DNA from: Tupaia tana
Lineage: Eukaryota > Chordata > Mammalia > Scandentia > Tupaiidae
Reading direction: 5' to 3'
Assembly (NCBI GenBank): GCA_026018925.1
Contig: JAKSZU010000004.1
Location: forward strand, 11,052,517-11,116,516
Length of the DNA: 64,000 nt
Below, piece by piece: positions 26,001 through 29,000 of this stretch. The position numbers and the translations under genes were made by a program. A model generated the notes under the pieces. That model was not told the origin of the DNA. It saw nothing but the letters and a program-made list of their open reading frames with translations, and did not search any database. Each line of letters starts with the position of its first letter. Position 1 is the stretch's first letter.

Positions 26001-29000
26001 CAGTGCGTCCGCGCAGTGGCCCAGCTGGAGGAGGAGCGGGACCAGCTCGTGCACGAGCTGGTGGCCCTGCGCGAGCCGGCCCTGCAGGAGGTGCAGCAGG
26101 TGCACCAGGACATCCTGGCGGCCTACAAACTGCACGCCCAGGCCGAGCTGGAGCGGGACGGGCTCAGGGAGGAGGTCCGGCTGGTCAAGCAGCGGCTGTT
26201 CAAGGTGACGAAGGAGTGCGTGGCCTACCAGTACCAGCTGGAGTGCCGCCAGCAGGACGTGGCCCAGTGGGCCGATCTCCGGGACGTGCTGACCACCCGG
26301 GCAGCCCAGCTCTCGCAGGAGCTAGCCCAGCTCCGGGATGCCTGTCAGAAGCAGAAGGAGCAGCTGCGGCAGCGACTAGAAGCGCCCCCCAGCCAGGGGG
26401 ACGGGCACTTTCTCCAGGAGAGCCGGCGGCTCTCAGCCCAGTTTGAGAACCTCATGGCAGAGAGCCGCCAGGGCCTGGAGGAGGAGTATGAGCCTCAGCT
26501 GCTGCGGCTCCTGGAGAGGAAGGAGGCCGGGACCAAGGCTCTGCAGAAAGTCCAGGCCGAGATCCAGGAGATGAAAGAGGCTCTGAGACCCCTGCAGGCA
26601 GAGGCCCGGCAGCTCCACCTGCAGAACAGGAACCTGGAGGACCAGATCACACTCCTGAGGCAGAAACGCGACGAAGAAGTGCAGCAGTACAGGGTAGGCC
26701 CGCGGTACAGGGCAGGGCCGCGGTACAGGTACAGGGCAGGCCCGCAGTACAGGGCAGGGCCACCGTACAGGTACAGGGTAGGCCCGTGGTACAGGTACAG
26801 GGCAGGCCCGCAGTTCAGGGCAGGCCCGTGGTACAGGTCAGGGCCACGGTACAGGTACAGGGCAGGACTGCGGTACAGGGCAGGACCGCGGTACAGGTAC
26901 AGGTACAGGGCAGGCACGCCGTACAGGGCAGGCCCGCCGTACAAGGCAAGGCCGCGATACAGGTACAGGGCAGGCCCGCGGTACAGGGCAGGACCAGGGC
27001 TGCACTACAGGGTAGTGGGCACGCATGGCACGAGGTCTGCTGTCCCAGGGAAGGGAGGTGGCCAGAGGCCGGTGTCTCGGGGCTGCGGGCTGCCATCACA
27101 TGTAGGCAGGACGTCTTGTTCTCTGGGGCCACTCCTCCCCTGACCTCCTTCTTCAAGCCTGCCCTAGGGACCGAGTTTTCTGCACCCTTGGTGTACACAG
27201 CCCTTCCCACCAGGGAGCGCACCGGCTCTCCACACCAACCCTGCCGTCCCGTACTCTCTTCCTGTGTGTTAGGAACTGAGGCTCAGTGGCTTGGAGTAGT
27301 TTAACTCTGGTTTGCCCACCCCAGATATTTCAGGGCTCTTTCCACCAAACCATTTTCTAACTGAACAACTAATTGCACGTGAGTGCAGACAGAGGAGGTG
27401 ACGGGGCAGGCAGGGTGACCTCATCGCTCCTCTCCACCCCACTCACCCTCGAGAACCACCTATCCGGTTTCTGCCTTCAAGTTTTCCAGCGCGTCCACTG
27501 GGATGAAATCTATAAATCTCCACATTCGTTTTCCTTTTTTGTACATTTGCCACCATCTCCCTGTATTCACATTGTTTCTGATTAGCCGTGAGCCAGTTCT
27601 AATCCCGTTTTAGAACAGAGTGGGATGTTAATACTAACAGCATAAACAATGACGTCGCTCTCTCCCAGACGGGGCTCTCCGAAGGTGAGGAGTATGCCTG
27701 ACGTATCCGTTACTCACTGACACGTACTCAAGGTTCAGGGCACTCCAGTTAAGTGCTGAGTGACGTGCCGCTGAGACCATGAGAGGAAAAGGCACCGTGG
27801 TGGTGCCTCTTTTTTAAAAAGAATCATTTAATTTTATTTATTCATTCATTTATTTTAATCTGACCAGGTAGACACAGAGAGAGAGAGAAGAATGTGGGAA
27901 AGCAAGCCACCGGGCCTGGGACTCGAACTGTAGTCAGCCATGTGGGAGTGTCCAGCACCTTAACCACCACACCACCTGCTGGTCCTGGTGCCTTTTATTT
28001 ATTTTTTTAAGGCTGTTGACATAGGGCGCATGTGCTCAAAGACAATGAGAGGGAGAGTGCAAAATCACCCCCTGGGGGGATGGCCACACACCAAAACTCT
28101 TCTCCATTCTCCTCCTGAGATTGTGGGCGTGCACACACATGTGCCTGGTGACTTTTCCAGCCACCAGGTCCAAGACTTGAACTGTGGTCAGCTGTGTGGG
28201 ATCCCAGCACCTTAACCACCACGCTACCTGCTGGCCTTTTAGAACACTGTTTTTCCTTTAAGGTGTTTGCCATAGGGTACACGTGCTCGCTGGAGAGACA
28301 CAGAGGGAAAGGAACGCACCTCCCAGGGGGATGGCCACAATGTCATCTCTTCTCCCTTATTTTCCTTGGGACTTTTGGGCATGCACACACGTGTCCCCAG
28401 CATTTTCCAGGCCACTGGGTCCAGGATGCAAACAGCTCAGTCAGCCATGTAGGCTGCAGCTGCCTAACCACTGTGCACCAGCTGGCCCACAGAGCAGTGC
28501 TTTTATCTTTTCCCTTTTAAACTTACTTATGAGTGAGACACATCCGTGATTCCCAGCTAAGCCTCATGCCACGATCCAGCCCCTGCTTCAGCAGCCCTGG
28601 GACTGTAAGCACGGTGTTCAGTAGGGTCTCTGATGCACTCCTGTTACCTTCTGAGTGGGTGGACCTTGCAGAGTATCGTGTTACGACCACTGTGCCTTAG
28701 GGTGGCCCCAGCCATCTTTCTCTTTTAGTTTTGCAATAGGCCATGGGATAGGCCATGGGCATTCGCCGGAGAGACAGACAGAGGAAAATGAGAAAACACT
28801 CCCGGAGGGATGGCCACGCCACAATCCCTTCTCAATTCTGAGATTTTGGGCACGTAACACATGTGCCCAGTGTGATTTTTTTTAAATAATATTTTCATTT
28901 AACTTTATTTATTATTATTATTTTTAAATATGACCAGAGTGAGAGAGATAGGGAAAGTGAGAAAGTTAGCGGCCAGGTCAGGGACTCGAAACGCAGCCGG

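Follow-up and report, generated by a model that had tools for sequence, protein, structure and literature searches.

A minisatellite spanning the exon 2 splice donor of a putative SYNC gene in Tupaia tana: in-frame donor copies in what is probably an intronic array

Where does an exon end when its own splice donor has become part of a tandem repeat? The question is raised by the window analysed here (a stretch of 64,000 nucleotides of Tupaia tana DNA), in which a minisatellite runs across the exon 2 donor of a putative syncoilin gene (SYNC) and carries copies of that donor downstream. Does such an array lengthen the protein, disturb its splicing, or leave with the intron? The gene name is our assumption and rests on likeness to the human protein, whose start the coding start matches; what the searches themselves identify is a Pfam Filament domain. 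The gene model is as follows:

16489-16541, + strand: SYNC exon 1, coding part (17 residues plus 2 nt, donor GAG|GTAGGA), from sequence and translation.
25565-26693, + strand: SYNC exon 2, bulk of the protein, ending EEVQQYR in phase 0, from its open reading frame, the acceptor TTGCAG|GGAAGC and a Pfam Filament match.
26694-26695, + strand: exon 2 donor AGG|GTAGGC, from U1 pairing and the continuity of Filament on joining exon 3.
35278-35402, + strand: SYNC exon 3, 125 nt (acceptor ATGCAG|GAACAG, donor ACAA|GTCAGT), recovered again by a protein search of the animal's own genome.
35554-35630, + strand: SYNC exon 4 (acceptor TTTTAAAG|GGCTATG), from the same protein search; its 3′ end is a possible donor only.

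Exon 3 joins exon 2 in frame, and the open reading frame that holds exon 2 runs from 25470 to a stop at 27143. The protein search gave three exon matches at this locus and no others at E <= 0.001, with 127 of 1370 candidates scored; among these same candidates there was no processed SYNC copy, in which a spliced junction could have been read. None of 20 pattern matches for stray SYNC pieces of other animals in viral contigs was confirmed. Joined through 26694, exons 1 to 4 encode 479 residues, close to the 482 of human syncoilin. This length is that of the frame running to a stop at 35684, which holds if the possible exon 4 donor (CTCAAG|GTGACT at 35631) is not used. Read beyond TQSQG (window positions 35631-35686), exon 4 adds 17 further residues before the stop. 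The human C-terminus, which we take to be short, is unlike this read-through end, and this points either to splicing at 35631 or to a C-terminus of another form in Tupaia tana. The exon 1 donor (16542, GAG|GTAGGA) is of the same GTAGG type as that of exon 2.

The array itself lies at the end of exon 2:

26687-27012, + strand: minisatellite of 326 nt, from Tandem Repeats Finder (TRF) rows, unit splitting and a 12-mer count.

Its first 7 nt are the last 7 nt of exon 2, and it continues across the donor (GT at 26694). Three TRF rows start at 26687, with periods of 18, 42 and 108 nt reaching 26992, 26987 and 26994, respectively; a period-24 row covers 26944-27012. Cutting at TACAGG heads, with one-base variants tolerated, gave 23 units: fourteen of 18 nt, seven of 6 nt (bare TACAGG), one of 24 nt and an incomplete last one that ends at the limit of the analysis. 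All units between 26688 and 27005 are divisible by 6 nt in length. The 18-nt units have the consensus TACAGGGCAGGCCCGCGG, translated YRAGPR, from which 9.5% of positions deviate (n = 14). The 12-mer GTACAGGGYAGG, with at most one mismatch, occurs 14 times in the window, every time within the array, where shuffles expect 0.62. The array matches itself best at a shift of 108 nt among the shifts tried (0.748), and its longest exact internal repeat is 27 nt. An earlier note had described the array as a copy of the end of exon 2 and its donor, which its start at 26687, the GT at 26694 and the unit layout bear out; the repeat array proposed there was recovered by both TRF and unit splitting, and its units, given as 18 and 24 bp, are better described as 18 plus 6 nt.

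Tandem arrays are generally prone to collapse or expansion by assemblers, so that the array might be an artefact of assembly. We found nothing specific in favour of this explanation, which we hold to be extremely improbable: 326 nt is short against a contig of 113.5 Mb, the window contains no N, and the 18-nt units are diverged rather than identical copies. A genome search with the array returned at least ten matches; among those listed, one place, the SYNC locus, matched at 100%.

Two further positions in the array fall in the register of the true donor:

26778-26779, + strand: in-frame donor copy, identical from -7 to +9, with a candidate insert of 28 residues.
27012-27013, + strand: weak donor-like copy AGG|GTAGTG, in frame, with a candidate insert of 106 residues.

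Their GT dinucleotides lie 84 and 318 nt from 26694, both multiples of three, as had been claimed earlier. The copy at 26778 is identical to 26694 over 16 nt, and the one at 27012 matches it from -6 to +4 only, with a T at +5. Predicted U1 pairing was -8.6 kcal/mol for both 26694 and 26778, which were jointly the best among the GT sites scanned, and -7.6 kcal/mol for 27012. An approximate donor weight matrix gave 2.30 to each of the first two and -1.69 to the third, and predicted accessibility was 0.0024 at 26694, 0.0036 at 26778 and 0.0002 at 27012. By sequence 26778 is the equal of the true donor, and 27012 is a weak one. A preference of the spliceosome for 26694 is therefore unexplained by the sequence alone, since 26778 is identical over 16 nt, pairs equally well with U1 and is predicted to be slightly more accessible.

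The possibility that the exon is facultatively extended arises directly from these copies. On this explanation 26778 (or 27012) would be used regularly, adding 28 (or 106) repeat residues whose number differs between individuals. The earlier proposal of such an insert is arithmetically sound: joins at 26778 and 27012 do add 28 and 106 residues of YRAGPR-type repeat, and no stop interrupts them, the exon 2 frame being open throughout 25470-27143. Units that are multiples of 6 nt would, in addition, preserve the frame at any copy number. Phase and openness are, however, what such an array gives almost by itself, a point that the earlier note passes over. Since unit lengths as far as 27005 are divisible by 6 nt, every donor-register copy falls in the same phase, and no selection is needed for this. 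Two of the three forward frames of the array are free of stops. Of random sequences with this composition, 9.7% stay open over 106 codons, and under a null that preserves the period (arrays of random 18-mers with a similar layout and about the same divergence) 56% do. With phase automatic and more than half of these null arrays open, an open frame says little in favour of coding.

Nor does the variation among the units speak for a protein. Among the differences from consensus in the fourteen 18-nt units, 9 of 24 were synonymous against 0.29 expected (P 0.23), a weak test in which the expectation uses assumed mutation weights, the differences are read from column counts and the cells are not independent. 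The repeat, taken as protein, gave no sign of constraint or selection in this weak test. Of the features that would mark a coding VNTR, an open frame is present and protein constraint was not detected by this comparison.

We took advantage of the Filament domain to locate the insert in the protein. The scored pieces were of 312, 340 and 418 residues, each beginning inside exon 2. The join at 26694 scored 45.5 bits against Pfam Filament (profile positions 32-307), above the cut-off of 40; joins at 26778 and 27012 scored 32.8 and 32.0 bits, with the best Filament stretch ending at profile position 262 in both, and exon 2 alone scored 28.5 bits. The exon 2/3 junction corresponds to position 262 of the 313 in the profile, and the insertion point is 45 residues upstream of the end of the Filament match. 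The drop in score shows where the insert falls and not that it harms, because any long insert lowers a domain score. Against solved structures the 312-residue piece had 11 matches, all weak (E from 0.018 to 0.68, so that none reached the default cut-off of 0.001), to eight keratin or vimentin chains, two fibrinogen chains and one ribosomal protein. Two keratin 5 chains align without gaps across the junction (weakly, E 0.018 and 0.02), and in the remaining keratin rows the two aligned stretches are equally long. The matched keratin constructs are presumably coil 2B. Since the junction is at profile position 262, the keratin 5 alignments, weak as they are, are ungapped and the constructs are taken as coil 2B, the last coil of the rod is where the insert would fall; the placement of the insert between coil segments in the earlier note is not supported.

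Regular extension of the exon would therefore break the Filament domain within its last coil. With this, the automatic phase, the lack of any sign of constraint in the units, the weakness of 27012 and the competition of other GT sites weighed against the copy at 26778, identical over 16 nt, we consider the facultative extension quite improbable.

These competing sites, absent from the earlier note, are out of frame:

26729-26964, + strand: eight phase-2 CAG|GT decoys, with GT at 26729, 26771, 26795, 26837, 26855, 26897, 26903 and 26963.

Splicing from any of the eight leads to a stop at nucleotide 40 of exon 3, which is 85 nt before the exon 3/4 junction. Nonsense-mediated decay usually follows when a stop lies more than 50-55 nt upstream of a junction, and at 85 nt it is therefore predicted. 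Predicted U1 pairing was -7.7 kcal/mol for the seven CAG|GTACAGG sites and -7.4 kcal/mol for 26837 (CAG|GTCAGG); a further thirteen phase-2 GT sites, including one within the exon, ranged from -5.1 to -5.8 kcal/mol. On the approximate matrix 26837 scored 3.40, above the 2.30 of the true donor, and the other seven, which are poor at +4 and +5, scored 0.28. Six of the decoys had accessibilities of 0.009 to 0.058, the other two 0.0024 and 0.0010, so that six of eight are predicted to be 4 to 24 times more accessible than 26694. Some decoys are thus predicted to outdo the true donor in some features.

Such sites could make the array a poison of splicing, by diverting transcripts into nonsense-mediated decay, with array length thereby controlling how much syncoilin is made. 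The number of sites, the position of the stop that they share, a U1 pairing near that of the true donor, the accessibility of six of them and the matrix score of 26837 all argue for it. So does the human ABCA7 intron 18 VNTR, in which longer arrays go with lower expression and more skipping of exon 19 (PMC5954066). The same source also reports that unit retention is constant across array lengths (PMC5954066), and this, together with the poor +4 and +5 positions of seven of the eight decoys (0.28 against 2.30), speaks against diversion on a scale that would set protein level. We regard this explanation as unlikely, while noting that it overlaps the one that we prefer, which permits decay at a low level.

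The preferred explanation, which we think is likely to be right on the features of the sequence, is that the array grew from a splice donor as an intronic minisatellite, normally removed and perhaps the source of some low-level mis-splicing. The spliceosome would mainly use 26694, and the 8.6-kb intron would take the whole array with it. Low-level use at most is expected of the copy at 26778 and of the phase-2 decoys: the former would give an in-frame insert of 28 residues that breaks the last rod coil, the latter frameshifted transcripts exposed to nonsense-mediated decay. Any effect of repeat number would then fall mainly on how efficiently the transcript is spliced and how much of it there is, as in ABCA7, rather than yield a useful protein variant.

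A more elaborate possibility, in which we place very little confidence, is that donor copies in two phases compete for U1 and that repeat number and GT/GC state together set the shares of normal syncoilin, of the in-frame 28-residue form and of decayed transcripts. Individuals with different arrays would then differ in a muscle filament protein, and a flexible break of 28 residues (Tyr-Arg-Ala-Gly-Pro) in the last coil could poison filament assembly.

The GT/GC state also bears on how the intronic array may have arisen. At the donor register, the 15 copies downstream of 26694 read GC in 12 cases, TC in one and GT in two, a count that leaves out the seven 6-nt units, which read TA there. As both the first and the last unit carry GT, an original GT unit with a later spread of GC is the simpler history. 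A segment of about 18 nt, with 7 nt from the end of exon 2 and 11 nt from the start of intron 2, would have been tandemly duplicated; a GC-for-GT variant would later have spread within the array, along with partial 6-nt (TACAGG) duplications. If surplus donors are harmful to splicing, selection would favour the spread of a disarmed GC copy. A single mutation followed by drift or spread explains the GC pattern equally well as selection.

Among known systems the array most closely resembles the ABCA7 intron 18 VNTR, so that its anatomy is of a known kind. The human array has 25-bp units and its first two bases are the donor of exon 18; the donor one unit downstream is used in RNA and shifts the frame (PMC5954066). 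Retention of a unit amounts to 2 +/- 1% in the tissues listed, if the order of the two figures given is taken correctly, and it is the skipping of exon 19, and not unit retention, that increases with length (PMC5954066). In both genes a minisatellite stands right after an exon and its first GT is the donor of that exon; the SYNC array adjoins exon 2 and contains its donor. The ABCA7 unit begins with a donor dinucleotide (PMC5954066); of the 15 downstream copies in SYNC, two have GT there. The differences are several. Units of 18 and 6 nt keep the donor-register copies of SYNC in frame, whereas the 25-bp unit of ABCA7 shifts it, and in SYNC 12 of these 15 copies have GC where the donor GT would be. 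The array of ABCA7 begins with the GT (PMC5954066), that of SYNC 7 nt inside the exon. Length variation and effects on splicing are proven for ABCA7 (PMC5954066); the SYNC array was read from one assembly.

A further parallel is offered by human duplicated genes, for which a survey counts 27 cases of introns modified by repeats at exon-intron boundaries (PMC2812944). Its variable internal tandem repeats are, like the SYNC array, minisatellites at a boundary, either kept in an exon or spliced out; those cases lie in human segmental duplications and have RNA support (PMC2812944), while SYNC was found at one place (127 of 1370 candidates scored) and its array was read from DNA. Among the syncoilin papers listed, mostly from outside subscription journals, we saw no report of a repeat. 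Introns have reportedly also arisen from tandem arrays or duplications, in a potato RdRp gene and, in work attributed to Zhuo and others (2007), in human genes. There as here the duplicated sequence carries a splice site; unlike there, no new intron is evident, and the SYNC duplication carries the donor of an existing one.

If the downstream donors are used, the locus would join ABCA7 as a natural example of a splice donor multiplied by a minisatellite, here with one register kept in frame. If only 26694 is used, it would be an ordinary intronic minisatellite, and would indicate that donor copies can accumulate harmlessly beside a real donor. With its two identical donors separated by 84 nt and some weaker ones in the interval, the locus makes a clean test of how the spliceosome chooses.

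Two properties of the array were considered as signs of function and rejected. Its RNA folding is strong (z -4.75; none of 100 dinucleotide shuffles as low, in shuffles that do not keep the period), and a self-complementary tandem unit can fold well by construction. GGG is denser in the array than in the rest of the intron (5.5 against 2.2 per 100 nt), and its count of 18 is not above the mean of 21.1 in a shuffle of the same composition. No canonical four-run G-quadruplex was found in 26600-27100; eight two-G patterns lie within the array.

The other matches of the genome search, at least nine, fall in three places at 70-72% identity. One locus per place was analysed with TRF, which gave a 21-nt unit, CAGGG and TGCCTG, respectively. 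Because these units differ from those of SYNC, the three arrays are taken, on their TRF units rather than on a unit-by-unit alignment, as alike in composition and not in origin. The CAGGG array (L006, 1005-2140) has about 230 copies and the TGCCTG array (L007, 1391-2302) has 152, both elsewhere in the genome. The third (L002, 839-2496) is a 1.66-kb array of about 77 copies of the 21-nt unit CCTGCTCTACTGCGGCCCTGT, lying about 0.3 Mb short of the end of contig C342; where it matches the SYNC array the likeness is about 70%, and its period differs.
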